From Mariprofundus ferrooxydans PV-1 (GTDB lineage: Bacteria; Pseudomonadota; Zetaproteobacteria; Mariprofundales; Mariprofundaceae), in NCBI RefSeq assembly GCF_000153765.1, contig NZ_DS022294.1:620836-684835 (forward strand): a DNA stretch of 64,000 bases, given 5' to 3'. The position numbers were made by a program, and so were the translations under genes. The notes under the pieces were generated by a model, which worked only from the letters and a program-made list of their open reading frames with translations, ran no database searches and had not been told where the DNA came from. Every line of letters begins with the position of its first letter. Positions within the stretch are counted from its first letter, which is position 1. Below are positions 1-17,421 of the stretch, one piece after another.

Positions 1-385
1 TTAGGCCTCTGCTCTTCCTCAAACAAACGGGAGTGACTTAATGTCACCTCCCCTTTCGCGTTAGGCCTCTGCTCTTCCTCAAACAAACGGGAGTGACTTA
101 ATGTCACCTCCCCTTTCGCGTTAGGCCTCTGCTCTTCCTCAAACAAACGGGAGTGACTTAATGTCACCTCCCCTTTCGCGTTAGGCCTCTGCTCTTCCTC
201 AAACAAACGGGAGTGACTTAATGTCACGTCTCCCTTTCGCGTTAGGCCTCTGCTCTTCCTCAAACAAACCGTCGTGACTTAATGTCACCTCCCCTTTCGC
301 GTTAGGCTTCTGCTCTTCCTCAAACAAACCGTCGTGACTTAATGCTACTCCCCCTTTCACGTTAGGTCTCCGTCTCTATCTATCT
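1..385. repeat. 60-61 bp tandem repeat array, running off the left edge
   Basis: Six nearly consecutive copies of a 60-61 bp unit start at 1, 61, 121, 181, 242 and 302, and a decayed seventh starts at 362. Copies 1-3 are identical; copy 4 has a one-base insertion; copies 5 and 6 diverge, so decay increases to the right. Each unit begins TTAGGCCTCTGCTC and contains the inverted repeat GTGAC-TTAAT-GTCAC. In copies 1-3 this is extended by GGGA and TCCC arms into a longer hairpin. Copies 5-6 replace GGGA with CCGTC, which shortens the stem. There are no variable spacers, so this is not CRISPR. The stretch from 386 to 588 shows no gene; it is the leader of the kinase gene, with a strong ribosome site (GGAGGT) just before 589. 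Confidence 0.95.
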
Positions 386-588: not shown

Positions 589-3132
589 ATGCAAGGAGAG
601 GCCGACAGGGTAGAGACTGGAGAATCCACACTCGACTCTCTGCATTTTTTCGAGGGCCTGGACCGGATAAACAGAGCCATCCAGGGAACTAGTGACCTGA
701 ATGAAATGATGCGCAATGTGCTCGAAGAGGTGCGTTCCATCTTCGATTGCGACCGCGCTTACCTCCTCTACCCATGCAATCCTGACTCAGATTCGTGGAC
801 AGTGCCGATGGAGTCTACCTCTCTGGAATATCCCGGTGCAGGCATCATGAATGTCGATACCCCCATGGACCCGGAAGTCGCGGAGAAAATGCGCCTTCTG
901 CTGGCATGTGACGGAGCCTTAAAGTTCGGCCTCGGTCCTGAACACCCTCTTCCCTCCAATATTTCTCAACGATTCGGAATCAAATCCTTCATCGCAACCG
1001 CCCTGCATCCGAAAAGCGGTGACACATGGGAATTCGGCATTCATCAATGCTCCCACAGCCGTATCTGGACAGCCGGAGAGGAGCGACTGTTCTTGGAGAT
1101 CGGCCGACGACTGACCGACGCTCTGACCAGTCTGCTGGTCAGGCATGAACTGCAAGAGAGCGAGGCCAAGTATCGCCGTTTTGTCGAGACCTCCAGTGAG
1201 GGAATCGTAGGCCTGAACAGCAATCACATAATTACGTTCATCAATGCACGGATGGTCGGAATGATTGGCTATAGCACTGATGAACTTATCGGACATCAAC
1301 TCAGCGATTTCATATTTGAGGAAGATATCGCTGATCACGAGCGGCATATGACGCTGCGTCGCCAAGGGACTTCAGAGCAGTACGAACGCCGGTTACGCTG
1401 CAAAGATGGCAGCGAATTGTGGACACAGGTCTCGGCAAGCGTCATCAATGGTGATAGCGGAGAGTTTCAGGGCTCCTTTGCGATGCTCACCGATATCACC
1501 GAACGTAAACGCATAGAGCAGGATATTATCGCCCGCGAATGCGACTTCCGCACGCTGGTTGAGAACAGCTCTGATCCTATCCTGCGCTATGACCGCGACT
1601 GCCGGCGTACCTATGTCAATCCGGTGATTAATCAGATCAGCGGCAAGCCTATCGATTCACTGCTCGGCTACACACCTGAAGACACCCAGCTACTGAGTGA
1701 CAGCGAAGCGAGAAACCTGACGACAGCCATCCGCCAGACGTTCGACAGTGATCAGGCATGCCATGTCGATTTCAATTTTATTGATCTGAATGACGAGATC
1801 CACGGCTACGATATGCTGTTAGTACCGGAACATGACGCCGATGGCCAGGTAATGACCGTGCTCGGTGTTGCCCACGACATTACCGAACGCAAACAGGCAG
1901 AGCGAAAAATTGCTGAATCCGAACAGAAGTTCCGCAGTCTGGCAGAAAGTTTGCCAGACAACATCATCCTCTATGATCGGCAAGGATTAGCCATATACAT
2001 CAACCCATCTCTTGAAAAAATGCTAGGCGAAAATGCTGTAAAACTGATCGGAAAAAGCGTCCGTGAACGTCACCCAGACGGCAGTTATGAAGCCTACGCA
2101 CAGGCCATTGACAATGCACTCACCAGCGGTGAGGACGATGAAATTGAATTTGTTGTCCCCAATCTGGGAACGGCGACGAATCCTGTTATTCATCAGATTC
2201 GCATTGTCGTCGAGCATGACGAACAGGGTGAAGTGACTGGTGTGCTTGCCATTGGCCGCGACATCAGCGAACAGAAAAAGGCCGAAAGAGAGTTAAATGA
2301 GAAGCAACGCCTGTTGCTGGAGGCACAACAGATTGCCCATGTTGGGAACTGGCACCACGATCTGGTAACCGACGAGATGTACTGGTCGGAGGAGTTTTTC
2401 AACATTCTCGGCATCCCTCCTCAAGAACCCTCTCTCGAATTGGGCCTCTCGTTTATCCATCCCGATGATAAGCAGAAGCTGTTCAACGATATTGAGCTAC
2501 CTGTCAACAAGGATGGCGATTTTGAACAGGAGTTCCGCATCATCAGGCCGGATGGAGAGATTCGCTGGATTCATAGCCGCTGGGTACGCATCAACGGTGA
2601 GAATGGAAACGAGATCAAGCGTGTCGGTACGCATCAGGACATCACCGAACGCAAACAGGCGGAGCAGGAAATGGCGCTGCTTGAGACAGCTGTAAACCGA
2701 TCCTCCGATGCCATCTATCTCATGGACGATCAGACCACACTCTTCCACTACGTCAACGATGCCGCCTGCCGTGCTCTGGGCTATAGCCGGGAGGAGCTTC
2801 AGACCATGAGCCCGCCTGATATCGATCCGGATATCACTGACCGTAAAAACAAGGAGCTGACAAAAGAGGTGGTAGAAGGTACCCCCATCGCCTTTGAGAC
2901 CCACCATAAGACGAAAGATGGGCGAATATTCCCCGTCGAAATCCATGCCTCCTCCTTCGAATATGGCGACAAGACCTTCAGTCTCGCAGTAGCGCGCGAC
3001 ATCACCGAGCGCAAACAGGCCGAGGAGCAACTGCAGCAGGCCCAAAAAATGGAGGCACTCGGCACGCTTGTTGGCGGCATCGCTCACGACTTCAAACAAT
3101 TCGGCTACATTAGCGCAAGCGCCTGCCGATAG
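589..3132 (+). pseudogene. 5' part of a hybrid sensor histidine kinase, cut in its H-box by a mobile element
   Basis: This is the first 835 codons of a large sensor kinase, followed by 12 residues read from the inserted element. It starts at ATG 589 after GGAGGT. A GAF-type domain (about residues 20-185) is followed by five PAS modules (about 190-815), most ending in the typical DITERKQAE linker. The kinase core then begins with GGIAHDF and stops making sense. The missing part (N-box, ATPase, receiver) resumes in frame at 14354, and joining the two gives a 1202-residue GAF-PAS5-HisKA-HATPase-REC protein. As it stands, the product keeps the phospho-accepting His but lacks the catalytic ATP-binding domain, so it cannot autophosphorylate. 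No membrane segment is seen, so it is probably cytosolic. Confidence 0.95.
3094..3111. other. attL, left junction of the integrated element
   Basis: The kinase reading frame is intact through TTC at 3091-3093. The AA at 3094-3095 is common to both junctions, and element sequence begins at 3096. Element positions 3103-3111 read GGCTACATT, seven bases from the AA. This is the right arm of a reconstructed attP whose left arm AATGTAGCC lies at the other end of the element (14338-14346). Confidence 0.93.
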
Positions 3133-3141
3133 ATAGTAGGC

Positions 3142-4782
3142 TTGCCAATAAGGAGCTTATTATATGCAAAGAAAGCCTATTCCTATATCAGATTTTCCAC
3201 GCCACAACAGTTGAAAGGTGACAGCTTACGCCGCCAACTTGAAGCAAGCCGTACCTATGCGGAAAAGCATGACCTAATTCTAGACGATAGCCTACGTGAC
3301 ATTGGAATGAGTGCGTATAAAGGAAAGAACGCTACTGAAGGGGCACTGAAGGACTTTATCAAACTGGTTGAAGATGGCCATGTCGACAAGGGTTCTATTT
3401 TGATTCTGGAGAGTTTGGATAGGTTATCCCGCCAGCAGGTTTTCACGGCCTTGGGGTTATTTTCCTCTCTCCTGTCAGCAGGTGTTGAAATCGTTACTTT
3501 GGCGGATGGACAGCATTACACTTCAGAAAGCATCAACGATGTGGGTCAACTTATGTTTAGTTTGATTTCTATGAGTCGCAGCCATGAAGAATCCGCCGTA
3601 AAATCCAAACGCATATCAGCGAGTTGGGAGAACAAGCGTAAACTAGCGGTGGAGTTCAAACGACCTATGACCAATCAATGTCCAAAATGGTTGCGTATAT
3701 CAAAGGACAGAAGCTGTTTTAAAGTGATTGAAGCTCGTGCAAAGGTCATTAGATGTATCTTTGATCAGAGCATCGCAGGGACAGGACAACGGAAGATTGC
3801 AGCGGGATTGAATGAGCGTGGAGTTTCTACTTTTAATGGTGGTGATATGTGGCACTCGTCATACATTGCTAAGATCATCCGTAGTAAATCAGTTATAGGT
3901 GAATATCAGCCCAAGCAGAAAGGTGAGCCAATTGGTGAATCTATTCCTGGTTACTATCCGGCTATTGTAAGCGAGGGTATTTTTGATAAAGCACAGGCAG
4001 CCCGCGTCAGTAGAATAAATCCTTCATCAGCAGGTAGGAAGGGAGAAAAGTTTTCCAACTTATTTTCAGGTATGTGTAAATGTTTGGAGTGCCATTCGAC
4101 CTTTCGTATGATCAAGAATGGTCGTTCTCATTTATTTCGCTGCAATAGTAACTATATGGGAAATGGTTGTAAGTGCGTCAAACGCTGGCGCCATCGTGAT
4201 GTTGAAAATGCAGCATTGCTTGTAATAAGTGAGAAAATTGATTGGTTCAGTGCTTTAGGCGGCCATACAAGCAGCAAGCAAAAACTGGAATCTGAAGTAG
4301 CGATACTGAATGCAAAGCTATTGGATGTTGAAAAGCAGGTTAGTCGCTTTGCCGATCTTTTTAGCTTAGCTGAAGGTTCGATGATGACAGATGCTCGGAA
4401 AAGGTATGTGAAAGCCATGCAGAGCGCTGATGGGGTTCGCCATGATATTGAGGTAAAAGAGGCAGAGCTTCGCACCTTCACGCCAGTTCAGCATAACCTA
4501 GATAGGCTGAACCGTATTATCTTCGAACTTAGGTCAGAGACTGATGTGCACAAGCTGTATGAACTGCGTGCACAGATTAATGGGATGTTCCGTGATGTAG
4601 GGTTAAAGCTCTATTTCAATGAACATGGTGTATTTTATTACCTCAAGAAAACGAATCAAAAAGGTATTGTTTTGATTGATGAACATAAGGAAGTTCTTTC
4701 CATGGGGGCTGATCTTGAAATGCTCCAACGCTCTTTTTCTGGAATGAATGAATGTATTGAAGAGGTAAGAAATTTAGCCTGA
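3142..4782 (+). CDS. large serine recombinase (site-specific integrase of the element)
   Basis: It catalyses integration and excision of the element. The N-terminal resolvase domain (about residues 10-160) has the catalytic serine S19 in YIRFSTPQQ. A Recombinase domain follows (about 170-290, RKIAAGLNERGVST). A zinc-ribbon region (about 315-355) has Cys pairs in CKCLEC and later CNSNYMGNGCKC, then a coiled-coil segment and a C-terminal tail. The 546-residue length fits this family. TTG at 3142 is the best in-frame start because a stop lies just upstream; an AAGGAG sits inside the gene start, so initiation is uncertain. It lies 31 bases from the AA crossover, the usual place for an integrase next to its own att site. 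Confidence 0.95.
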   Translation: MPIRSLLYAKKAYSYIRFSTPQQLKGDSLRRQLEASRTYAEKHDLILDDSLRDIGMSAYKGKNATEGALKDFIKLVEDGHVDKGSILILESLDRLSRQQVFTALGLFSSLLSAGVEIVTLADGQHYTSESINDVGQLMFSLISMSRSHEESAVKSKRISASWENKRKLAVEFKRPMTNQCPKWLRISKDRSCFKVIEARAKVIRCIFDQSIAGTGQRKIAAGLNERGVSTFNGGDMWHSSYIAKIIRSKSVIGEYQPKQKGEPIGESIPGYYPAIVSEGIFDKAQAARVSRINPSSAGRKGEKFSNLFSGMCKCLECHSTFRMIKNGRSHLFRCNSNYMGNGCKCVKRWRHRDVENAALLVISEKIDWFSALGGHTSSKQKLESEVAILNAKLLDVEKQVSRFADLFSLAEGSMMTDARKRYVKAMQSADGVRHDIEVKEAELRTFTPVQHNLDRLNRIIFELRSETDVHKLYELRAQINGMFRDVGLKLYFNEHGVFYYLKKTNQKGIVLIDEHKEVLSMGADLEMLQRSFSGMNECIEEVRNLA

Positions 4783-4870
4783 AGTTCTTTGTGCACAAGG
4801 CGTGCACAAGAAATAGCTAAAGTGGGGATAAGTTCAGTCGATAGGCTGTAAAATACTATTGGAGGTGCTT

Positions 4871-5125
4871 ATGCCAAAACCATCAACGAAATCATCAGGA
4901 ATCAGAATGCCCACAGAGCTTTATAACTGGATAGATCAGTATGCTGCTAAAAAGAGAGTGTCTCGCAGTCAGTGCGTTTGCGACTTAGTTAAAAAAGCCA
5001 GAGGAAGTCTTTCCCGAAGAGTTGAAACTAAACAGCCATGGACGATCCATGCTGCCAAAGCAGGTGAATATGTTTCGGTTGGCATCATTCTGGTGGACAT
5101 TCAATGTATGGCCGGTTTGCTGTAG
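4871..5125 (+). CDS. small ribbon-helix-helix DNA-binding protein
   Basis: An 84-residue protein starting at ATG 4871, five bases after GGAGG. The N-terminal half has the pattern of a ribbon-helix-helix fold: a short strand (SSGIRMPTELYNWIDQYA) followed by two helices (KKRVSRSQCVCDLVKKA). The C-terminal 40 residues match nothing I recognise. It follows the recombinase by 88 bases on the same strand. In mobilizable elements such proteins act as excision factors, relaxosome accessory proteins or repressors of the recombinase or mob genes; which applies here is not visible. No toxin partner is adjacent, so an antitoxin role is less likely. Confidence 0.65.
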   Translation: MPKPSTKSSGIRMPTELYNWIDQYAAKKRVSRSQCVCDLVKKARGSLSRRVETKQPWTIHAAKAGEYVSVGIILVDIQCMAGLL

Positions 5126-5272
5126 CTAATATAAGTGTAGTTTCTCTATAAAAAGATAACTGGCATTTCAAGTGGAAGCTTACCCATTGCAAGAGTATTT
5201 AAGTTTAAATAGATAAGCTTGTCCTTAGAAATGGTAGTGAAAGCACATGATTTTGATGGAGTTGTTTTAGTT

Positions 5273-5471
5273 AGTCGACTTTTTTTTGTCATGTCAGATG
5301 CGTTGAAAACTAATGACAATAAAAAGTTGACTTTAGGCTCACAGGATTGAAGTGGTTTTTTTTATAATCTATCAGTCGATTTTTTGTTGTTATGACATAT
5401 CATAAAAAAGTAGAATCCGCTTGTTCTTTCTACTTTTTTTTGCATATACAATAACAATCCAAAAAGTGACT
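5273..5471. repeat. two-hairpin repeat, copy 1 (modules A and B)
   Basis: Module A (5273-5332) opens with AGTCGACTTTTT and closes with AAAAAGTTGACT, making a long imperfect hairpin whose arms also pair over TGTCAT and ATGACA. Module B (5374-5471) opens with AGTCGATTTTTTG and closes with AAAAAGTGACT, and holds an inner stem AAAAAAGTAGAA / TTCTACTTTTTT. The 41 bp between the modules is unrelated to the matching spacer in copy 2. A second A+B pair occurs at 8925-9127, so the two copies bracket the four cassette genes as direct repeats. The rest of 5126-5846 is AT-rich and holds only the cassette promoter and leader. Confidence 0.92.
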
Positions 5472-5646
5472 CCTAGCTACGTTGTTTTACAGCTTAGAGT
5501 TCATACCGATGCGTGATTAGTATGAATCCTTAAATTGAGAATATGTTTTATTAAAAGAACGAGCCTTGATTATTGATATAAAGAACCAATTCCTAAAAGT
5601 CAAGTTAAAAATTTATGTAAATGATTGTAAAATAACGACATTTAGC

Positions 5647-5674
5647 TTGACAAAGCCGAAATATTTGATATATT
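5647..5674 (+). promoter_or_regulatory. sigma70-type promoter of the AAA ATPase cassette
   Basis: TTGACA at 5647-5652 is a consensus -35 box. TATATT at 5669-5674 is a good -10 box, 16 bases away. The first supported start codon downstream is ATG 5847, leaving an untranslated leader of about 165 bases. That leader contains a short open frame starting ATGCCTACA at 5773, mirrored by the same bases at the true start of the ATPase. Confidence 0.6.
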
Positions 5675-5846
5675 AAATCACCACTTATGCATTTTTAACT
5701 TTGTGATAACTATGAATCTTTGAGGTGGTACTTCCCATGCAGATTAAAAACTAACCCTTTTTAGAATTACCTATGCCTACAATTTATTGATATTTTTTTA
5801 CCGCTATTTCGCGGATGGATTGCTATTGCCCAATGGAGAGTTACTG

Positions 5847-6965
5847 ATGCCTACAAAAGAAGAGTTAGACCAGATATTTGCATCACCTAAGAAGCGTGAA
5901 AGGAAATCAGAAGGTTTCGCAAAGCGAGGTTCATTTAAAAATTTAAACAGTACTGAGGATATTCACGAGCCTGCATATTCGATGTGTCTATTTGATAGGA
6001 TGGAAGTACTGCAAAAGTTAAAAACAGTTGGACAGCAAAAAGATTCCCAAGAGATTCAAGCTTGTCTTAGAAAGATGCAAATAAATGGAGGACAATCGTT
6101 TCTTGCTCCCCTGCCAGCAGGTTATGAAGCATTGCTTGATAACTTGCTGAATATGTACCCTCATTTTCACAACGTTGTTAACTTTATTAAGCAGCGAATG
6201 CGGTTAAATGCGCTAAAAGAACACCCCGCCCTAGAGTTTGGAGCATCTATTCTTTTGGATGGTCCTGCAGGCTGTGGAAAGACTTCTTTTCTGATGAAAT
6301 TGAGCAGAATCTTTGAAACGGAATTTGCTTCGATTTCATGTGCAGCAGCCACAAATAATTTTGATTTAACTGGCTTGTCAGCAGGCTGGGGAAATGGTCG
6401 TCCGGGTAAAATATATGATTTATTGATTAATTCTAGATGTCCTAATCCAGTGATACTTCTCGATGAAATTGATAAAACCAATAGCCAAGCTGAAAAACAG
6501 AATTTCACAGGAGCCTTATATGGACTACTAGAAAAAAATAACGCCAAATCATTCCAAGATGAGTTTATAGGAATAGCGATGGATGCGAGTAAGATTAATT
6601 GGTTTGCCACAAGTAATGATACTACCTGCTTAGATGAGCCTATTCGTGATCGGTTTGAGGTTATCTCGGTTAGTGCTCCAAGCGAACAGCATTTGGAACA
6701 AATTATTCCCCAGTTATTTCAATCTACTGTATTGGAAATTGGTCTTCAAAGTTCTTTTGCAATAGAGCTGAATGAGAGTGTGGTTAGAAAGGTGCTGTCA
6801 TACCGCAATATTTCAATTCGTCGCATCCAGTCTGTTCTAAAATCTGGCTTAGCAAATGCGGCATGTCGTGTGAAAAGAGGAGAAAAAAAGGTGTCATTAT
6901 TAGCATTAGATATTCCTGAATATCACTCGATTGAGACAAAACAAAAAATAGGATTTATTCACTGA
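5847..6965 (+). CDS. AAA+ ATPase, Lon-like ATPase module without a protease domain
   Basis: A 372-residue single-module AAA+ protein. Walker A is GPAGCGKT (residues 139-146), Walker B is ILLDEID (about 203-209), a sensor-1 Asn lies in FATSND, and an arginine-finger-like RDRFE follows. The stretch after Walker B (ALYGLLEKNN, then FATSND) follows the order seen in Lon ATPase domains, but the chain ends after the small AAA subdomain with no Ser/Lys protease. The N-terminal 130 residues are not recognised. ATG 5847 follows GGAG at good spacing; an earlier in-frame TTG at 5787 is weaker. Its stop overlaps the next gene's start by one base, so the two are translationally coupled. The substrate is unknown. 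Confidence 0.88.
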   Translation: MPTKEELDQIFASPKKRERKSEGFAKRGSFKNLNSTEDIHEPAYSMCLFDRMEVLQKLKTVGQQKDSQEIQACLRKMQINGGQSFLAPLPAGYEALLDNLLNMYPHFHNVVNFIKQRMRLNALKEHPALEFGASILLDGPAGCGKTSFLMKLSRIFETEFASISCAAATNNFDLTGLSAGWGNGRPGKIYDLLINSRCPNPVILLDEIDKTNSQAEKQNFTGALYGLLEKNNAKSFQDEFIGIAMDASKINWFATSNDTTCLDEPIRDRFEVISVSAPSEQHLEQIIPQLFQSTVLEIGLQSSFAIELNESVVRKVLSYRNISIRRIQSVLKSGLANAACRVKRGEKKVSLLALDIPEYHSIETKQKIGFIH

Positions 6966-7714
6966 TGAAGATACATATCCTTTCTGACTTGCATCTTGAA
7001 TGTGCTTCATTTGAGCCTGCTGTAACTTCTGCTGATCTGATAGTCCTAGCTGGAGACATTGGTGTTGGTGTGACTGGTATTAACTGGGCGAAAGAGTGTT
7101 TTCAAGTTCCTGTACTGTATGTACCAGGCAATCATGAGTTCCATGATCCATCGATGTTGATGGATGAGCATATAGCTTTGATGCAACAGGCATGTTCGGG
7201 ATCAAATGTGATGCTTATGGATAACAAAACTACAGTAATCAATGGAGTACGGTTTATTGGGTCTACTCTATGGACTGACTTGCAAAAATTTAAATCGATA
7301 CTGTTTTGTGATGCTGACAGAATTATATCGGAGTATGAGATCAACCAACATGCTGGAGGTTTGAAGCATTTTGATTGGGTGTATGCACAAACACTGTTTG
7401 AAAGAAACAAGCTGTGGCTTCAATCTGAATTGGCGCGATCATTTAATGGAAAAACAGTTGTGGCAACTCATCATGCACCTTCGAGGAAAAGCATAGCTCC
7501 TCAATATAAGGGGAATGATTGGAATCCATGCTTTGCATCTGATCTAGAGTCATTAATTCTTGATGTGGACTTGTGGATTCATGGCCATACGCACAGTAGC
7601 TTGGATTATGTATTAAATGGCGCTCGCGTGGTCTGTAATCCTCGGGGATACCCTAACCCTTTAGGTGGGTGGGAGAATGGATTTTTTACCCCGTCGATGG
7701 TGGTAGAGATATGA
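6965..7714 (+). CDS. calcineurin-like metallophosphoesterase
   Basis: A 249-residue metallophosphoesterase with the full set of metal ligands in order: DLHLE near the N-terminus, GDIG, GNHEFHD, a THHAPS block, and HGHTH near the C-terminus. The family hydrolyses phosphomonoesters or phosphodiesters, including nucleic acid ends and cyclic nucleotides; sequence alone does not choose. There is no signal peptide, so it is cytosolic. The start overlaps the ATPase stop, so the two are probably co-expressed and may work together. A hairpin with stem CCCTGA/TCAGGG lies just after the stop (about 7734-7753). Confidence 0.9.
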   Translation: MKIHILSDLHLECASFEPAVTSADLIVLAGDIGVGVTGINWAKECFQVPVLYVPGNHEFHDPSMLMDEHIALMQQACSGSNVMLMDNKTTVINGVRFIGSTLWTDLQKFKSILFCDADRIISEYEINQHAGGLKHFDWVYAQTLFERNKLWLQSELARSFNGKTVVATHHAPSRKSIAPQYKGNDWNPCFASDLESLILDVDLWIHGHTHSSLDYVLNGARVVCNPRGYPNPLGGWENGFFTPSMVVEI

Positions 7715-7912
7715 AAGCATTCAACTTTCATGCCCTGATGGCTGTTTCAGGGTCATGCTTCCTATATGGATAGTGATAGTGATTGACCTTGGATATGTCG
7801 ATAGTCGAATGCTTCCAAACATGATGATTTCAACTGTGTGGGATTTGAGCCTTCAGAATGATGTGGTTGAACCGATAAATAATGAGTTAACAAGATATTG
7901 AGGGATTAGGGC

Positions 7913-8458
7913 ATGAATAACAAAAAACTACTGATACTGGATATTGATGAAACATTAATCCATGGCTCCCAGCATCGTTTGGATACTGAACCTGATGCTA
8001 TATCGGATTGGTGTTATCTTTATAAGCGGCCACATGTTGATTCGTTTATGAAGTTTTGCCGTGAGCATTATAAGGTAGCTATTTGGACTACTGCATCGCC
8101 TGAGCATGCCAAGTTGGCTTTGGGGGCGATATGCAGCCCTGACTATCCCTTTGAGTTCATATGGACGGGCAATCGTTGCACTCAAGTTGTTGACTCAATC
8201 GGCATGTGTGATTTTGGTGGTGGTTATCATTGGGTTAAAAACTTAAAGAAGGTTAAGCGCATTGGTTTCCGTCTGGAACAAACAATCATGGTTGATGATA
8301 CGCCATCGATGCTTGAGAAGAACTACGGAAACCTGATCCAAATTGAAAAATTCTTAGGTGCTCAGGATGACCATGAACTTCAGCGGTTAATGCCATATTT
8401 GCTTCAATTAAAGGATGCGGACAATATTCGAAAAATTGAAAAGCGATGTTGGCGATAG
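7913..8458 (+). CDS. HAD phosphatase of the FCP1/NLI-interacting-factor type
   Basis: A 181-residue protein with the HAD nucleophile motif DIDETL (Asp10, Asp12), the threonine motif in VAIWTTAS, and a late acidic VDDTP motif. The KRPHVDSFMKFC block after the nucleophile is typical of FCP1/SCP-like phosphatases, best known for dephosphorylating the RNA polymerase II tail in eukaryotes. Bacterial members are mostly uncharacterised and common on mobile DNA. It starts at ATG 7913 after a GAGGGATTAGGG stretch, 198 bases after the metallophosphoesterase on the same strand. A protein, nucleotide or nucleic-acid 3'-phosphate could be the substrate; I cannot tell which. Confidence 0.82.
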   Translation: MNNKKLLILDIDETLIHGSQHRLDTEPDAISDWCYLYKRPHVDSFMKFCREHYKVAIWTTASPEHAKLALGAICSPDYPFEFIWTGNRCTQVVDSIGMCDFGGGYHWVKNLKKVKRIGFRLEQTIMVDDTPSMLEKNYGNLIQIEKFLGAQDDHELQRLMPYLLQLKDADNIRKIEKRCWR

Positions 8459-8553
8459 AATTTCATATATATAGTACTGATGACTGTATTGAGGCATATG
8501 GTTCAGTTCGATATATTGAATGCCATGATACTAAAATAAAAGAGGTTGAAAAT

Positions 8554-8904
8554 ATGAATCCATGTTTGGAAGATGTATTATATGAATTATTTGAAAGATT
8601 GCCACATATTGATAATGATCAAAGAATGGATCTTTATACTGAGTTAGAAAATAGTGATCAAAATATTGATACTTTTTTGCGTATTACTGTTCGAATAAAA
8701 AAAGACCTTCAGGATTTTCAAAAGTCTCTTGATGCTGACAAGATAAGAGAGGCACTTGAAAATGATGAAGACTTAATTGATATTGAACTTGATAACACTG
8801 CAGGAGAGTTAATTGAAGCGATTGATAAAACCTATGAAATTCTTGGAGAGTCATGGAAAGATATTCCTGTTGATATTTTTGAGGAATGTATAAGTTTAGA
8901 TTGA
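8554..8904 (+). CDS. small acidic protein of unknown function
   Basis: I do not recognise this 116-residue protein. It is strongly acidic and predicted mostly helical, rich in Asp, Glu and Ile (for example DLIDIELDNTAGELIEA). ATG 8554 follows AGAGGT at good spacing. An in-frame ATG at 8446, overlapping the phosphatase gene, would give 152 residues but has a poor ribosome site. As the last gene of the cassette it could be an inhibitor, a DNA mimic or an adaptor of the upstream enzymes. That is only a guess from charge and position. Confidence 0.6.
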   Translation: MNPCLEDVLYELFERLPHIDNDQRMDLYTELENSDQNIDTFLRITVRIKKDLQDFQKSLDADKIREALENDEDLIDIELDNTAGELIEAIDKTYEILGESWKDIPVDIFEECISLD

Positions 8905-8924
8905 TGTTTAAGTGTAAAAATATG

Positions 8925-9127
8925 AGTCGACTTTTTTTTGTCATGTCAGATACGTTGAAAGCTATGACAATAAAAAGTTGACTCCCTATACACCCTCTGA
9001 ATATAGGCATATTGTGAGATCAAATTAATTAGTCGATTTTTTGTTGTTATGACATATCACAAAAAAGTAGAATTCGTTTGTCCTTTCTACTTTTTTTTGA
9101 TATACAATAACAATCCAAAAGTTGACT
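8925..9127. repeat. two-hairpin repeat, copy 2 (modules A and B)
   Basis: Module A (8925-8983) and module B (9031-9127) repeat those at 5273-5332 and 5374-5471 with few changes, in the same orientation and order. The 47 bp between them is unrelated to the copy-1 spacer. This copy lies between the end of the acidic gene (+) and the end of the relaxase gene (-), where a bidirectional terminator would be useful. The AAAAAAGTAGAA / TTCTACTTTTTT stem in module B could serve that role. Confidence 0.92.
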
Positions 9128-9145
9128 CCTAAACGCCCCTGCTTA

Positions 9146-10573
9146 TTAACTGACTGAACCTGTGGATGATAATGCGAGGGTAGACTTTGGCATATCGATA
9201 TTTGGATGTTTCTGCTGTAGTAACTTCAAAGACTGGTGCGTACTACGTAAATTATCTGAAATTTGGGAGAGCCTGTTCTTCATTGTGTGAAGTTCATCCT
9301 TCCTTTGTTGACTCTTTGTTTGTTCAAACTCAAGCATAGAGGCTGCTTTATCAATTAATTTTGGATGGGCATATGCCGTGTCTAGCAGTTTATTATATTG
9401 ATGTTGGGTTTCTCTGAGTGCACGGTCGGCTTGCTTCATATACTGAGTTTCAGTACTCCTGAATCCATGATTCCACCAGCAGGATAATTTTGCCCTGATA
9501 TTTGACAATTTTATCGGAGCATTCTTGATTAGAATGTAGGCATCATAGCGTTTTTTTGCTTTTGCATGTTCTATGCTCGCGTGGTTCATGGCAAGGTGAT
9601 AAACGCTGCCTGACTTGGTGTTGGAAAGGTATGCTTGAATAGCTTGCTGCAATGTTTGAATCATAGGTTTGGCAGAATTCAATTGATTAAGTTCTTTGCG
9701 AATAATCTGTTTGTCACCAATCAATTTTTCATAATGATGAAGCAATGTATCACGTTGAACCTTTGCCATATCAGATAGAAGATATTGGTTTTTCTGAATA
9801 ACTTTTTCCCATCGCTGGTAGCGTTCATTCTTGATGATATCTGGTTTAATATCTTCCTTGGACTCATCAGCCTGTTTTTTTGTTCTTCTGTGTAGGTTCC
9901 AGGATTCTGCGCCGACCTTAGGCTGTGGAATCAGATCAATACCTTGATCTGCATAACTTCTACAATCAATGCGTGCAGGTACATCAAAATCAGCCAAGGT
10001 CTGGTTACACAGAACTTCCCATAATTGACGAATTTCCAGTAGCTTATCACTGGATTTAGCAGGTTGTATTCCACGACCTCGTGTTTTTGCCTGCCATGAA
10101 CGATCTTTGCGGCACCCTCCACTTTCTGGTCTCTTGTTATTTACGCGTTTGAAATAATGTTTTTGATCGCGCTCATGACCATCATCAATACGCTCAGAGA
10201 ATTGAAGGTGCACATGAGGATTCATAGCACCATCACTGGCTTTCGTATTGTGAATGGCAAAGCTGAATGCATGGTTATTTCCGCATGCTTCTTCAGCAAG
10301 CTGTTTTGCCAAATCTATTTGCTGAGCAAGCGGCAGCTCCCTTGGCAATGACACTTCCAATTCTCGATAGACAGTGCCATTGGCACGCTCAAATTCATCC
10401 GATGCCTGCCAGAACAAGACTGGCTTGTCGGCAGCCCATTTGGGCATGTTTCCATGCTCAATATGAACTACGCCTCGCTTATGTGCATACTTTTCAATTG
10501 CACAAATATAAGTGAAGTGACGGGCAGCATTACCCTTCTCTCCGATCTTCAATGTTAAATGATACGTTGCCAT
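9146..10573 (-). CDS. mobA: MobA/MobL-family relaxase
   Basis: The relaxase nicks the element's oriT and leads the strand into a recipient through a helper transfer system. The 475-residue protein starts at ATG 10573 after AGGTG. The relaxase domain fills roughly the first 200 residues and contains the metal-binding histidine motif NPHVHLQFSER. A long helical, probably coiled-coil tail follows. No primase domain is fused, unlike RSF1010 MobA. It reads away from a putative IncQ-type oriT about 100 bases upstream and converges on the cassette. No coupling protein or mating-pair genes are present. Confidence 0.93.
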   Translation of the reverse strand: MATYHLTLKIGEKGNAARHFTYICAIEKYAHKRGVVHIEHGNMPKWAADKPVLFWQASDEFERANGTVYRELEVSLPRELPLAQQIDLAKQLAEEACGNNHAFSFAIHNTKASDGAMNPHVHLQFSERIDDGHERDQKHYFKRVNNKRPESGGCRKDRSWQAKTRGRGIQPAKSSDKLLEIRQLWEVLCNQTLADFDVPARIDCRSYADQGIDLIPQPKVGAESWNLHRRTKKQADESKEDIKPDIIKNERYQRWEKVIQKNQYLLSDMAKVQRDTLLHHYEKLIGDKQIIRKELNQLNSAKPMIQTLQQAIQAYLSNTKSGSVYHLAMNHASIEHAKAKKRYDAYILIKNAPIKLSNIRAKLSCWWNHGFRSTETQYMKQADRALRETQHQYNKLLDTAYAHPKLIDKAASMLEFEQTKSQQRKDELHTMKNRLSQISDNLRSTHQSLKLLQQKHPNIDMPKSTLALSSTGSVS

Positions 10574-10659
10574 CAGGGCGCACCTATTCCTTATAAAATT
10601 GAAATAGGTAACGTAAAAAACAGAACTCAAATAAATTAAATATGCATGGGATTTTAAGG

Positions 10660-10712
10660 GCTTGCCCTTAACGCGCCGTTTCTCGCTAGAGAAACGCCTA
10701 AGCGCGCTCTTT
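10660..10712. other. putative oriT, RSF1010/IncQ-like
   Basis: The inverted repeat GTTTCTC-GCTA-GAGAAAC (10678-10695) is followed by GCCTAAGCGCGCTCT. RSF1010 oriT, as I recall it, has GTTTCTC-GAA-GAGAAAC followed by CGGTAAATGCGCCCT, so the hairpin arms are identical and the nic side is similar. A second small inverted repeat AAGGGC/GCCCTT lies just before it, and GGCC-AGAG-GGCC just after. It sits directly upstream of the relaxase gene, the normal location. The rest of 10574-10837 is an AT-rich divergent promoter region. Confidence 0.8.
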
Positions 10713-10783
10713 AGGCCAGAGGGGCCTGTTGCGTAAATCTATTTATCGGGAGATAATTAGAAAACTTGAGAAATTAAAATTCT

Positions 10784-10802
10784 CTTGCCCCCCCCCTGCA
10801 AG
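10784..10802. repeat. run of nine C bases inside a small inverted repeat
   Basis: CTTGC (10784-10788) and GCAAG (10798-10802) form a stem whose loop is almost all C; the uninterrupted C run covers 10788-10796. It lies about 40 bases before the start of the element's kinase gene, in the promoter or leader. Homopolymers of this length slip readily, so expression could vary between cells; this is not demonstrated. Confidence 0.8.
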
Positions 10803-10837
10803 TTTCATACCATATCGGGTGAGGAGATAGGAGGGCT

Positions 10838-13474
10838 ATGTTGAAAAAACGGACACTAGAATTTCCCGTAGCCGTAGCCGTAGCCGTAGCCGTAGCCGTA
10901 GCCGTAGCCCTTTCTCAACTTAAAAGCCATCTGAACGAAGAAGCAATAACCAACCTTACCACTGTCAACAATAGTATTCAAATCTCATTACATCGGCAAA
11001 TTCGAGAAATATCCCTATCATCCCAACAAATCCTGAAGAATGAGTTGGTATATCAAAATATATACAAGTTGCTTCAGAAACCAGACATATCCAAAGGTGA
11101 ACGATTCAATTTAAGAGAATTACTTGCTAAACATATATTCCCTCAAGGGTATAAAGGATTTTATTTGATTGGCAAGAACCACAAGATTCTTATTTCGATG
11201 AAGGAGCATGATACTCACAAACCCCCACCTTCTGTCGTGTTGAACGCAATTGAACGATTAAACCAAGGAGAGCCTTTTATTGTAACACATGCTTTTGTGT
11301 TTGATGGAAAAACCTCAATGTGGGGAATCGCAAGCGTAATGAACGATACGGGAAAAGTGTTCGGTTATTTTGCGCTTTCTCTAGGTGCTGATTTTCGTTT
11401 CTCATCAACAACTTTAACATCAGGTATCAGTTACGAAACAGGAGAAACCTATCTTGTCGATGAGAATGGCCTGATGCTTTCAGAGTCACGATTCAAGGAA
11501 CATCTGGTGATGACTGGGTTGCTCGCTGAAGGTGAGCCGAGCACAAAACATCTGAGAGTAGCCGACCCAGGTGTTAACCTGCTTGAAGCAAATAATGAAG
11601 TGGAGTTACCAAAAGATAAGTGGCCATTAACATTCGGGGTTCAACAAGCCCTGACAACCCACCGCATGGGGTGGAGCACCACTGGTTATAGAGACTATCG
11701 CGGCGTACCCGTAATTGGTGTGTGGCGCTGGGATGTTCCATTACAGGCGGCAATTATTACTGAAATCGATGAGGATGAAGCGCTAGATAAGTATGTATAT
11801 GTGCGCAATGTCATGCTGGCTTTGTTGTTGGTTGTCGTAATAGGAAGCGTAGTTGCTGTGATGGCGTATAGTCGCCTGCGAGTCCGCTCTGAACGGGAAG
11901 CCAACTATCACCGGAATTTATTGCTTGAATCCACAGCAGGAGCGATTTACGGCATCGATATGGAGGGACGCTGTACATTTGTTAACCGGGAGTTTCTTAG
12001 CTTGCTTGGATATGAGGAGCAGGAAGTTCTTGGCCAAACAATCCACAGCCTGATTCACCACTCTTACCCTGATGGTCGTCCCTATCCAGTAGAAGAGTGC
12101 AATATTTATAAGGCGCATCAAAACCAAAGCAGAATCCACAGAGACGATGAATCTTTCTGGACGAAAGACGGTGAAGAAATCAAGGTGGAATACTGGGCCC
12201 AACCATTGCTCGAAGATGGTAAGGCTGTAGGAAGTGTTGTTACTTTTGTCGATATCACTGAGAAAAGAATGCTTGAGTGTGAGAAGGAGCAATTAGAAAA
12301 ACAGGTTCATCACTCACAGCGACTTGAAAGCCTAGGAATCCTAGCCGGTGGAATTGCACATGATTTCAATAACATTCTCGCAGCAATTCTTGGAAATGCG
12401 TCTTTGATATCATCATATGTTATGAAAGACCCTCTTCGCGCAAAAGAGAGGGCTGATAGAATTGTTCAATCTGCAGAAACAGCCGGTGTACTATGCAAAC
12501 AAATGTTGGCTTATTCAGGCAAGGGGCAATTTATATTGAAATCAATTTCACTGTCCCCTCTGGTGGAGGAAATGACTCACCTGCTGGAAGTGTCTATTGA
12601 TAAGTCAGTTGTTATTAAATATTACTTGGCTGACAGGCTGCCCAAGGTCATGGTTGATGAGGCACAAATACAGCAAGTTGTAATGAACCTCGTAACCAAT
12701 GCCAATGAGGCAATTGAAGGTAAAAGCGGCGTTATTTCAATCACAACTGGAGTTATGTATGCTGATGAGCAATATCTTTCAGATTGCCATGCTGGAGAGC
12801 ACACATCAGCAGGAAGATTTGTCTATGTTGAAGTAAGTGATAACGGCTGCGGCATGGATAAGGAAACAGTGCAAAAAATCTTCGACCCCTTCTTTACAAC
12901 AAAAGTGACTGGCCGGGGACTTGGAATGAGCGCGACTTTGGGAATCGTGCGCGGCCACCATGGGGCTTTAAAAGTGTACTCCGAGAAGGGGCGAGGCACG
13001 ACCTTTAAGTTATTGCTGCCAATTAGCAAAGAAGAGCACATTCATACCGACACAGCCACCAAGCAAAGCAATATTTTACCTCCAAGGTTTTTGGAAAAAG
13101 CTGTGTTAGTCGTTGATGATGAAGAAACAGTTCGTGAAATGGCCTGCATGATGCTGGAAGAACTAGGATTTAAAACCATCCCTGCATCTGATGGTGAGGA
13201 GGCGCTATCCTTGTATCGACGCCATCAAGGTGACATATGCCTTGTCTTAACAGACTTAACCATGCCTCACATGGATGGTAGGGACTTATTTATTCGACTG
13301 AAGCAACTAAATTCGGATTGTCACATTATTCTAAGCAGTGGCTATAACTCTCAGGAAGCGATTCAGCAGTTTTCGGGTAAGGGGCTGGCAGGATTTATCC
13401 AAAAGCCTTATACAGAGGACACTCTAAGGCAGGAAATCATTAAGGTGCTTGGAGAAGAAAGTGATAATGCCTAA
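10838..13474 (+). CDS. element-borne membrane hybrid histidine kinase (Cache-like sensor, PAS, HisKA, HATPase, REC)
   Basis: An 878-residue sensor kinase. The first membrane segment is almost wholly (Val-Ala)7. A periplasmic sensor of about 300 residues (Cache-like from its position and helical start) is followed by a second membrane segment near residues 325-348 and a PAS domain (about 365-480). The H-box is GGIAHDFNN (near residue 507). The ATPase has DNGCGM and an FDPFFTTK block. The C-terminal receiver has its Asp in LTDLTMPHMDG and a KPY lysine motif. ATG 10838 follows GGAGGG closely. The next gene, a PstS-like protein, overlaps its end, suggesting the periplasmic protein may feed this sensor. 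The H-box DNA resembles the site where the element integrated. Confidence 0.92.
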   Translation: MLKKRTLEFPVAVAVAVAVAVAVALSQLKSHLNEEAITNLTTVNNSIQISLHRQIREISLSSQQILKNELVYQNIYKLLQKPDISKGERFNLRELLAKHIFPQGYKGFYLIGKNHKILISMKEHDTHKPPPSVVLNAIERLNQGEPFIVTHAFVFDGKTSMWGIASVMNDTGKVFGYFALSLGADFRFSSTTLTSGISYETGETYLVDENGLMLSESRFKEHLVMTGLLAEGEPSTKHLRVADPGVNLLEANNEVELPKDKWPLTFGVQQALTTHRMGWSTTGYRDYRGVPVIGVWRWDVPLQAAIITEIDEDEALDKYVYVRNVMLALLLVVVIGSVVAVMAYSRLRVRSEREANYHRNLLLESTAGAIYGIDMEGRCTFVNREFLSLLGYEEQEVLGQTIHSLIHHSYPDGRPYPVEECNIYKAHQNQSRIHRDDESFWTKDGEEIKVEYWAQPLLEDGKAVGSVVTFVDITEKRMLECEKEQLEKQVHHSQRLESLGILAGGIAHDFNNILAAILGNASLISSYVMKDPLRAKERADRIVQSAETAGVLCKQMLAYSGKGQFILKSISLSPLVEEMTHLLEVSIDKSVVIKYYLADRLPKVMVDEAQIQQVVMNLVTNANEAIEGKSGVISITTGVMYADEQYLSDCHAGEHTSAGRFVYVEVSDNGCGMDKETVQKIFDPFFTTKVTGRGLGMSATLGIVRGHHGALKVYSEKGRGTTFKLLLPISKEEHIHTDTATKQSNILPPRFLEKAVLVVDDEETVREMACMMLEELGFKTIPASDGEEALSLYRRHQGDICLVLTDLTMPHMDGRDLFIRLKQLNSDCHIILSSGYNSQEAIQQFSGKGLAGFIQKPYTEDTLRQEIIKVLGEESDNA
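10868..10909 (+). repeat. hexanucleotide microsatellite (GTAGCC)7 inside the kinase gene
   Basis: Seven perfect copies of GTAGCC encode (Val-Ala)7, residues 11-24 of the element kinase. The unit is six bases, so gain or loss of copies keeps the frame but lengthens or shortens the only hydrophobic stretch of the first membrane segment by two residues per unit. Confidence 0.97.
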
Positions 13475-14297
13475 GTCTATATACCTCACGCTCATAGCTA
13501 TTTGTTTTTCCTGTATGTTATTGCAGCAGGCTCAGGCAGAAGTCATCACAATAGCTGGTTCATCAACCATTCAGAAATTCATCAAGCTGGCTGCGAATGT
13601 TTACTCATCTCGCCACCCAGATATCCAATTCATTATTGGCAGTGGCGGTTCTACTGCGGGTTTCGCAAAAGTAATCGATGGGCGTATTCAAATAGGAATG
13701 ATGAGTCGGGAATTAACTGACGATGAAAAAAAGAAACTTGGTTCAATCCAGCATCTTGTGGTGGGTTTGGACGCAGTCGTTCCGGTTGTTTCACGGGAAG
13801 TATTTCAAGCAGGAATCAAACTAGTCGATTTACCTACGCTTGCTCGGATATATCAAGGGAAGATAGTAAGCTGGAACCAATTAGGGGGGGCAAATCGAAA
13901 AATTTTAGTTGCTGACAAAGAGGTGCACAGGGGAACTCGCTTTGTCTTTGCCATGGCCGTGTTTGGCGACCCGAAAGCACGAGCAACTAAGAGAGCAATT
14001 ATTCTTGGCGATAATCAGGAAGTGCTCAATTTGGTGTCATCGAGCGACCAGGCAATCGGTTATGTCAGCTTCGCTTATGCCAGCGGAGATGTGAAGGCTC
14101 TTTCCTTGAAAGTTGACGATAAAGTCATTTCTCCTACACTCAGTAACATCAGGAATGGTTCTTTTCCTATGGCACGGAAACTTTATCTATTAGTTCCCAA
14201 GAATGTCCCCGGTTACGTTGCTGATTTCGTCCGGTTTGTTCAATCTGAAGAAGCCATGGCTCTTGTGAAGAAGGCGGGTTACATCCCTGTAAATTGA
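13467..14297 (+). CDS. PstS-like periplasmic phosphate/oxyanion-binding protein
   Basis: A 276-residue secreted binding protein. A signal peptide ends near AQA (about residue 25), then the mature protein opens with ITIAGSSTIQKF, the typical PstS-family start where the GSST loop contacts phosphate. IGSGGSTAGF and IGMMSREL fit the same fold. ATG 13467 overlaps the end of the kinase gene, so the two are translationally coupled. No PstC, PstA or PstB transporter genes are nearby, so it probably serves sensing, or is a stand-alone scavenger, rather than import. It ends 54 bases before the element's right junction. Confidence 0.88.
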   Translation: MPKSIYLTLIAICFSCMLLQQAQAEVITIAGSSTIQKFIKLAANVYSSRHPDIQFIIGSGGSTAGFAKVIDGRIQIGMMSRELTDDEKKKLGSIQHLVVGLDAVVPVVSREVFQAGIKLVDLPTLARIYQGKIVSWNQLGGANRKILVADKEVHRGTRFVFAMAVFGDPKARATKRAIILGDNQEVLNLVSSSDQAIGYVSFAYASGDVKALSLKVDDKVISPTLSNIRNGSFPMARKLYLLVPKNVPGYVADFVRFVQSEEAMALVKKAGYIPVN

Positions 14298-14337
14298 TAC
14301 TTCCCCTTTGTGAAGTCGAATCTCTAAGAGATTGACC

Positions 14338-14355
14338 AATGTAGCCTAACATGAA
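14338..14355. other. attR, right junction of the integrated element
   Basis: AATGTAGCC at 14338-14346 is the left arm of the reconstructed attP, followed by seven bases and the shared AA at 14354-14355. Kinase coding sequence resumes at 14356. The last three element bases, 14351-14353, are ATG in frame with the downstream kinase fragment, so the element supplies a start codon right at the crossover. Confidence 0.93.
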
Positions 14356-15457
14356 CAACAAGCTGGCAGCCATCACCGGCAACCTCTATCTGGCCCGGAG
14401 CGGTATCGACTCTCGCTCCGAGACAGCAGCACGCCTGCAATCGGTGGAGACATTGAGCTTCGAAGCAGCCAGCATGGTACAGCAACTGCTTACCTTCGCT
14501 CGCAAAGGCAAGGTCGAGCAGAAGCCTCTGGCACTAGTCCCTTTCATCAAGGAGACGGCCAAACTCGACAGCGTCGCCATTCCGGAAAACATACAATTTT
14601 CCATGAGCTACTGCGAAAATTCCCTGCTGATAACAGGCGATATAACCCAGCTGCAACAGCTCTTCCTTAACCTGCTGACCAATGCGCGCGATGCACTGGA
14701 GGGAGTGGATCAGGCCCGCATCGACCTGTCGCTGCAATACTACGAACCCGACAGCGACTTTATCGAACGCCATCCGGAAGCAGAAAATAAGGATGCCTTT
14801 GCCTGTATGCGACTATCCGATAACGGCCATGGCATCGCGCCTGAGCACATGGAACAGGTGTTTAATCCGTTTTTTACCACCAAGGAGGTGGGAAAAGGCA
14901 CGGGGCTGGGACTTGCAATGGCATACGGCATAGTGACATCACATCACGGGGTCATTGAGGTTGAGAGTACACCCGAACAGGGTAGCTGCTTCTCAATTTA
15001 CCTGCCTCTTCAAAGCAATGCAAATACAGTGCTACCGATAGAACAACAGCAGGAGGTCATCAACGGAGATGGCGAAACTATTCTGCTTGCCGATGATGAT
15101 GAGAATGTACTGCAGACCTTCGCTAAGGTACTGACATCGATTAATTACCGTGTGCTGACCGCTCGTGATGGCCGCGCAGCGCTCGAAAGCTACAGGCAAC
15201 ACAGGGGTGAAATAGATCTGGTCATACTTGATATCATTATGCCCAAATTAACAGGCCCGGATGTGGCCCGGCAGATCAGGGAGATAGCTCCTGGTGCAAA
15301 ACTGCTTTTTGCGACCGGTTACGATAAAGAGTCGGATCATCATGGCATGACAGGCAATATCGAGGTTCTGGATAAACCATATGATCTGGCAAAGGTCAGC
15401 AAAAGCATTCGGCGCATACTGGAGCGGGAATCGACCCGAAAGGCCGATCGCCGCTAA
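14351..15457 (+). pseudogene. 3' part of the interrupted hybrid kinase (N-box, HATPase, receiver)
   Basis: This 368-codon frame continues the kinase from 589-3093. It opens MNNKLAAITGN, where NNKLAA is the second half of the H-box, then the dimerisation helix, an ATPase domain (DNGHGI, FNPFFTTKEVGKGTGLGL) and a receiver domain with Asp in LDIIMPK. It lacks the phospho-accepting His and all sensor domains. The ATG comes from the element and lies 54 bases after the PstS-like gene, so a truncated ATPase-receiver protein could be made from the element's transcript. No good ribosome site is visible. Precise excision would restore the full gene. Confidence 0.93.
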
Positions 15458-16233: not shown

Positions 16234-17421
16234 GTGTCCGAAGATAATTCCGGCAGGAATAAACAAGAGCAATCATCTAAACAGGCGGATGGCGATCAGG
16301 CAGCTTACCTCGACTCGCTCATTGCCCAGTTTAAGGATGACGTCGATGAGGATTTTGCAAACGATGCGGATGGGCCACAGCCATCAGCCGGCAGCGAGCC
16401 CGAACTGATCGAACCTCCCATATCCGAGCCGGATGAATCACCATCGCAGGCCACATTGCCTGCAGTGACCGAAAAAACCGACACAACAACAGACCCCACC
16501 ATCGTTCTGCTGGCTGGCTTTATTCTCGCAATCGTGCTCAGCATGGTTCTCTGGCTGGCTCTCAATGGTGACGATGATGACAAGCATGCCGCCACCGATA
16601 TCGGGCAACCAGTTTCACAGACAGCACCCGCACAAACTACAGTGCAACCGGTTACGCCTGCCGTCATGGATCAGCAAACGGCACCGGAAAACGACACAAC
16701 GCAACCCGTCGAGGCGGATCAGGTTGATGAGCATGCAGTCGCACCGGAGCAGAGCGCGGAACCTGCTGCTACTTCTGATCAGGTCGAGGAACCTGCTACC
16801 GCACCGGAGCAGAGCGAAGAGCCTGCTGCTACTTCTGATCAGGTCGAGGAACCTGCTACCGCACCGGAGCAGAGCGCGGAACCTGCTACTACTTCGGATC
16901 AGGTCGAGGAACCTGCAGCCACTCCGGATCATAGCGAGAAACCTGCAACTGCGCCGGAACAGAACGAAGAGCCTGCTACCGCACCGGATCAGGTCGAAGA
17001 GCCTGCTGCCGCGCCGGAGCAGAATGAGCCGTCAGCACCCACGATAGAGCAGAAACAATCACACACCCCGACGCAGGCAGCGTCGCCCCCTTCCACCATG
17101 CTGCACCTGTATATCGACCCGGTCTCGCGCAAGGTAATTGCGCCCAAGCCGGCCCATACCCGCATCTCCTGGGCTGTCAATTTAACATCGATTTCCAATC
17201 TCGCTATTGCCGAAAAAATAGAGCGAAGCCTCGATAACAGAGGCATTAAAACCGAACTGGTCTGGGTCACGATTGGCAACAAGTCGTTTTATCGCATACG
17301 CATCCCCGGCTTCGCCAGCAAACGGGCAGCCATACAGGCACTCCGGACATATAAAAAAGAGCGGGAGTTCAGTGATGCCTGGATAGAGAACTACCACCCG
17401 CTACCCCGCACATCGGAGTAA
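16234..17421 (+). CDS. single-pass membrane protein with Glu/Pro/Ala repeats and a C-terminal SPOR domain
   Basis: A 395-residue bitopic protein. An acidic cytoplasmic part (residues 1-88) is followed by a transmembrane segment (about 89-110). A long periplasmic linker rich in EEPAT and PEQ repeats (about 165-280) leads to a SPOR domain over the last 80 residues. SPOR domains bind denuded glycan strands at the division septum, so this is probably a divisome or cell-wall protein similar in layout to FtsN or DamX. The GTG start at 16234 follows GGAGGGGG. The linker contains an exact 20-residue coding repeat, listed separately. No operon partner is evident. Confidence 0.85.
   Translation: MSEDNSGRNKQEQSSKQADGDQAAYLDSLIAQFKDDVDEDFANDADGPQPSAGSEPELIEPPISEPDESPSQATLPAVTEKTDTTTDPTIVLLAGFILAIVLSMVLWLALNGDDDDKHAATDIGQPVSQTAPAQTTVQPVTPAVMDQQTAPENDTTQPVEADQVDEHAVAPEQSAEPAATSDQVEEPATAPEQSEEPAATSDQVEEPATAPEQSAEPATTSDQVEEPAATPDHSEKPATAPEQNEEPATAPDQVEEPAAAPEQNEPSAPTIEQKQSHTPTQAASPPSTMLHLYIDPVSRKVIAPKPAHTRISWAVNLTSISNLAIAEKIERSLDNRGIKTELVWVTIGNKSFYRIRIPGFASKRAAIQALRTYKKEREFSDAWIENYHPLPRTSE
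16741..16920 (+). repeat. three near-identical 60 bp coding repeats in the SPOR protein linker
   Basis: Positions 16741-16800, 16801-16860 and 16861-16920 are almost identical 60-mers, each encoding a 20-residue unit beginning APEQS and containing SDQVEEPAT. More diverged relatives follow to about 17030. The unit is in frame, so copy-number change would alter the reach of the periplasmic linker without breaking the protein. Confidence 0.95.

Follow-up and report, generated by a model that had tools for sequence, protein, structure and literature searches.

A putative mobilizable element whose large serine integrase appears to target the H-box codons of sensor kinase genes

We analyzed a window of 64,000 nucleotides of Mariprofundus ferrooxydans PV-1 (the whole stretch of DNA under study) and found a hybrid sensor kinase gene split by an element of about 11.3 kb. 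Judged by sequence comparison, this is very probably (probability of roughly 0.88) an integrative and mobilizable element with a large serine integrase, variable cargo, and an attB formed by the DNA of the kinase H-box. Across 78 genomes of the class, 14 element-kinase insertions were identified in 11 genomes, a count that includes two reverse insertions and takes in insertions with both junctions or one only, several being one-sided. All 14 occupy the identical two bases of the first Asn codon.

Junctions, attachment sites, and the restored kinase

The initial annotation had described both junctions as readable to the base, and they can indeed be read in the window sequence, the left as CACGACTTC-AA-ACAATTCGGCTACATTAG and the right as AATGTAGCCTAACATG-AA-CAACAAGCTGG, with the core AA at 3094–3095 equal to the AA at 14354–14355. 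The features of the split gene and of the element ends are as follows.

589..3093, + strand: 5′ part of the interrupted hybrid sensor kinase, with GAF, several PAS, and the start of the DHp domain up to HDF (ORF, Pfam, joined frame)
3094..3095, + strand: attL crossover dinucleotide AA (bases 1–2 of the first Asn codon of HDFNN)
3103..3111, + strand: integrase-side attP arm GGCTACATT, conserved in relatives
14338..14346, + strand: far-side attP arm AATGTAGCC
14351..14353, + strand: ATG at the element's right end, sharing the reading frame of the 3′ kinase half
14354..14355, + strand: attR crossover dinucleotide AA
14354..15457, + strand: 3′ part of the interrupted kinase, with the rest of DHp, HATPase, and receiver (ORF, joined frame, homology to the uninterrupted kinase of genome G051)

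As it stands, the 5′ kinase part continues into the element and stops at 3132, but joining 589–3093 to 14354–15457 yields a single open frame through GGIAHDFNNKLAAITGN that encodes a hybrid kinase of 1202 aa, as predicted from the first reading of the sequence. The perfect, equidistant 9-bp attP arms proposed in that reading were likewise found, AATGTAGCC and GGCTACATT being inverted, matching at 9 of 9 positions, and each lying 7 nt from the AA, so that the element has the 2-bp crossover and dyad-symmetric attP of large serine integrases. Among relatives with both ends, 7–9 of the 9 arm positions match. The element end sequence was found again beside homologous integrases in other genomes, a recurrence that is not due to chance because a reversed control pattern gave zero matches in that search. 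The AA is the only sequence common to both junctions, and the attB must reach beyond it into both flanks.

Mechanistically, we propose that the large serine integrase would recombine this attP (9-bp inverted arms, 7-nt spacers, AA core) with the attB codons around HDF-NN, cutting at bases 1–2 of the first Asn codon in the hybrid sensor-kinase H-box. The H-box is conserved in a large paralogous family, so a single integrase could reach many loci and still be sequence-specific. The core dinucleotide would set orientation, with AA placing the integrase first in the kinase sense and TT giving the reverse. Insertion would split the kinase, and precise excision would rebuild it. Catalysis would be carried out by the window integrase and mobilization by the relaxase.

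Integrase, relaxase, and cargo genes

Between its ends, the element encodes the following genes.

3142..4782, + strand: large serine integrase with Resolvase, Recombinase, and Zn-ribbon domains (Pfam, start comparison)
4859..5125, + strand: 88-aa ORF directly downstream of the integrase; three other H-box elements have it too (the second copy in G000, G052, and G019)
5787..6965, + strand: AAA ATPase, cargo (Pfam), also in the reverse-oriented G046 element
6965..7714, + strand: calcineurin-like phosphoesterase, cargo (Pfam), also in the G046 element
7913..8458, + strand: NIF/HAD-type phosphatase, cargo (Pfam)
8446..8904, + strand: 152-aa protein of unknown function, cargo (ORF, Pfam scan)
9146..10630, − strand: MobA/MobL relaxase (Pfam), conserved in sister elements at 45–55%
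10838..13474, + strand: hybrid histidine kinase as cargo, with PAS, HisKA, HATPase, and receiver domains and its own HDFNN intact (Pfam)
13449..14297, + strand: PstS-like substrate-binding protein, cargo (Pfam)

The integrase has the domains of a large serine recombinase, PF00239, PF07508, and PF13408 all scoring above cut-off in Pfam, and gave no Pfam match to DUF4368. Its start differs from that of relatives, which read ATGCAAAAGAAAGCC where the window reads ATGCAAAGAAAGCC, by a 1-nt deletion (A4 to A3) within window 3164–3175. The relatives' normal ATG corresponds to 3164–3166 and is out of frame here, and the frame opens only at a TTG, position 3142, which is upstream of the usual ribosome site. 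The window copy may use this TTG as its start or may have lost activity, and the A-run deletion could conceivably be a sequencing error. By position, the 88-aa protein is a candidate directionality factor or regulator, and it has just one weak, sub-threshold NCBIfam match.

The MobA/MobL relaxase is common to five elements, which by gene content are integrative and mobilizable elements because they share it. The window element pairs its own integrase with this relaxase, and no conjugation-pore family, as would mark type IV secretion genes, was found among those of its proteins that were scanned by Pfam. Cargo differs between elements: that of G057 includes an MmeI-type restriction-modification enzyme, that of G052 polysaccharide genes and a hybrid kinase, and that of G046 two kinases and an EAL protein. 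A histidine kinase is carried by three of the four readable H-box elements, in host genomes that are themselves kinase-rich. More generally, the elements often carry a histidine kinase of their own as cargo, at window 10838–13474, L033 8852–11740, L026 12280–14607, and L024 8669–10351, and at least three of these kinases themselves have an HDFNN-type site. No Rfam families were detected in the first 20 kb of the window.

Recurrent insertion in kinase genes and empty sites

The window's genome holds a second integrase, 71% identical, directly after the HDF of another kinase; both ends of this second element were found, the right one ~31.5 kb from the integrase, and ~17 kb of it reads N. The closest integrases (G013, G019, G057, G052, this second copy, and a partial one in G012) share the same position in kinase genes. 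Each of the seven loci whose integrase is at least 71% identical along its full length, or 84% along the half available for G012, directly follows a kinase HDF. Junction pattern searches added left-side insertions in G015 and G063 and right-side insertions in G042, on contig G051:C95, and at a second G019 site. Right-end pattern matches in G007, G024, G058, and G064 did not continue into kinases and were taken as chance matches or other elements. The target kinase halves are mostly 28–60% identical to each other, with the exception of G012/G019 (69–74%), and the idea that the element may target many kinase genes is thus borne out by 14 insertions in kinases mostly unrelated beyond the domain. 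Two G019 contigs carry an identical 55-nt junction, including the right element end, followed by two different kinases, a pattern compatible with a single element at two loci or with two states coexisting in the population sampled.

Empty sites complement these insertions. The initial annotation had held that related genomes free of the element and without an uninterrupted kinase would speak against insertion; in G051, of the same genus, the window kinase is instead intact, a single 2646-bp alignment at 81.6% identity spanning the junction, similarity continuing downstream of it, and the H-box reading CACGACTTCAACAACAAGCTGGCAGCC. At the second element of the window's genome, a G051 homologue, rather than an established orthologue, crosses the junction unbroken at 79%.

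It had also been suggested that excision acts as a developmental switch, i.e., that this is a regulated gene-interrupting element whose programmed excision turns the kinase back on, as in the sigK skin or fdxN element. We consider this highly unlikely. Wherever both ends of an element are known, the two kinase halves are in frame, and the weak NCBIfam matches of the integrase include XisF, the fdxN excision recombinase, albeit far under cut-off; however, intact halves are equally expected from recent insertion. Developmental elements have a fixed target gene needed in a cell type, whereas the gene interrupted here varies among genomes and between the two copies in one genome. The normal start of the window integrase is frameshifted, the G063 integrase is reduced to its first codons while its kinase is still split, and in G052 the 5′ half of the kinase has been displaced, just 45 aa staying open; the G063 and G052 insertions look permanent. 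The relaxase, found in an element whose sisters carry cargo as varied as restriction-modification enzymes, fits transfer rather than a host switch. Taken together, these observations leave the proposed switch without support and agree better with an integrative and mobilizable element.

Sequence of the target site

For such an element, the occupied sites indicate what the integrase may recognize. In the left halves of nine of them, most variation around GG-I-A-H-D-F is at third codon positions, and we infer that tolerance of third-base variation would be the basis of multi-kinase targeting. On the right, 11 of 11 occupied sites read NN-x-L-A, whereas L-A follows NN-x in 10 of the 15 intact HDFNN sites left in the window's genome, so that attB probably exceeds the Asn-Asn codons, in a comparison confounded by kinase-family conservation, any two such genes agreeing at the protein level. 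The earlier equation of attB with the Asn-Asn codon pair therefore holds for the position of the crossover, in the first Asn codon, and probably fails for its extent. A preference for WWG as the third codon after NN was also considered and dropped, being broken by two sites found without that constraint.

An integrase of relaxed specificity, of the multi-targeting or transposon-like kind, might meet kinases merely through their abundance, given the kinase-rich genomes, the 15 intact HDFNN sites in the window's genome, and the other targets of some related integrases; but insertions of all close relatives share one codon and, within it, the same two bases, which strongly disfavors this explanation and makes it extremely improbable. 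Equally hard to credit is vertical descent, in which insertions would have been inherited with a few kinase genes rather than arising independently: G012 and G019 do have an orthologous kinase (69% and 73.5%) broken at the same place, but elsewhere the targeted genes are different paralogues, the window kinase is whole in G051, whose element end sits in another kinase, the same element end is joined to two kinases in G019, and orientation varies between groups.

Orientation, core dinucleotide, and distant relatives

The reverse insertions, in G046 and G057, involve two integrases, 62–64% identical, that lie in the H-box in the opposite orientation, with both ends known for G046 (17.6 kb) and one for G057. 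Their core, when read from the integrase side, is TT and not AA. For Bxb1 and phiC31, the passage of PMC3783163 that cites its references 43 and 44 gives the dependence of orientation on the central dinucleotide as established. A further relative in G046, with 65% integrase identity, has a core of AC and a non-kinase target resembling an intergenic repeat, suggesting another sub-lineage aimed at a dispersed repeat. At its locus (L026; G046:C1, about 2365 kb), this core-AC element lies between copies of a GAATGNCCGCTTTGGGT-like sequence. The series (AA forward, TT reverse, and AC at a different target) amounts to a natural experiment on the core-orientation rule.

Relatives at 51–59% have still other target sites; the 51–54% relatives at L035 and L036 occupy the same place of apparently one gene in two genomes. 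An N-terminal integrase fragment in G041, 74% identical, lies outside any kinase. Homologues at unrelated sequences with other cores had been named in advance as evidence against H-box targeting, and they do exist among the 51–65% relatives, one with core AC, but the closest loci are in kinases in seven of seven cases. Only part of this integrase family thus targets kinases, since the 51–65% integrases sit at unrelated sequences, and these related integrases with changing targets offer material for studying how attB specificity evolves. The integrase tree supports several pairs (window and G013; G057a and G052a; the two TT elements; and the second G000 copy with the TT pair) and does not resolve the kinase-targeting integrases as one clade.

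Beyond the class, a phylum sample of 398 genomes yielded nothing above 43%, and some of the six distant integrases in that sample seemingly lie, by eye, in a comM/YifB-type gene. A phage origin was set aside, with zero relatives among IMG/VR viral contigs, while those in phages and plasmids were all distant (under 60%).

Comparison to known integrase systems

Descriptions of serine integrases usually fall into two kinds, those faithful to a single gene and those with loose specificity. The group described here appears instead to recognize a protein-family signature at the DNA level, with many exact sites per genome and no loss of precision. Within the open-access literature that was searched, we found no description of kinase H-boxes as targets of serine integrases.

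The nearest site-specific counterparts are the large serine recombinases of integrative mobilizable and conjugative elements, with sites such as rumA, snf2, and traG (review, PMC5704250); magnesium-chelatase-type targets of large serine recombinases have also been described (Durrant et al. 2022, PMC10083194). The H-box element resembles the former in having an integrase at one end, a 2-bp core, a split conserved coding gene, and a relaxase, but where those are confined to one gene, its motif spans paralogous kinases and provides many legal loci per genome. Durrant et al. separate site-specific from multi-targeting recombinases, the latter having either relaxed specificity or a target sequence present at several sites, and the H-box group fits this second multi-targeting type, with a complex coding motif. 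As in TndX/Tn4451-like and Cp36 recombinases (PMC10083194), close integrases lie in different genes; unlike these, which use a short AT-rich consensus, H-box elements use a defined coding motif at the same base each time, and the relaxed specificity and DUF4368 of the multi-targeting clade are absent. IME_oriT elements, which insert in the conserved nic site of different ICEs (PMC5704250), are similarly specific for a motif that recurs in different replicons, several copies per cell, but they use tyrosine integrases and an oriT sequence rather than a serine integrase and protein-coding DNA. Finally, the sigK skin, nif, and fdxN elements also encode a recombinase and split a gene that excision can restore, whereas the H-box elements give no sign of a fixed target gene, programmed excision, or domestication.

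Right end of the element and flanking sequence

Each of the nine forward right junctions (the window and eight others) has an ATG directly preceding the core, in frame with the 3′ kinase half, and TT and AC elements are without it. This conserved ATG may be part of what the integrase recognizes or may provide a start codon. Inspection by eye showed no obvious ribosome site at the ATG, and no convincing promoter for the 3′ kinase half was found near the right end. An unlikely though conceivable extension is that the elements rewire signaling, disabling a host hybrid kinase, bringing their own, and supplying the ATG so that the HATPase-receiver half would be translated separately.

Outside the element, window 1–360, upstream of the kinase, consists of a tandem repeat with a unit of ~60 bp, and window 16700–17000 is a Glu/Pro/Ala-rich repetitive coding stretch inside the ORF at 16234–17421.
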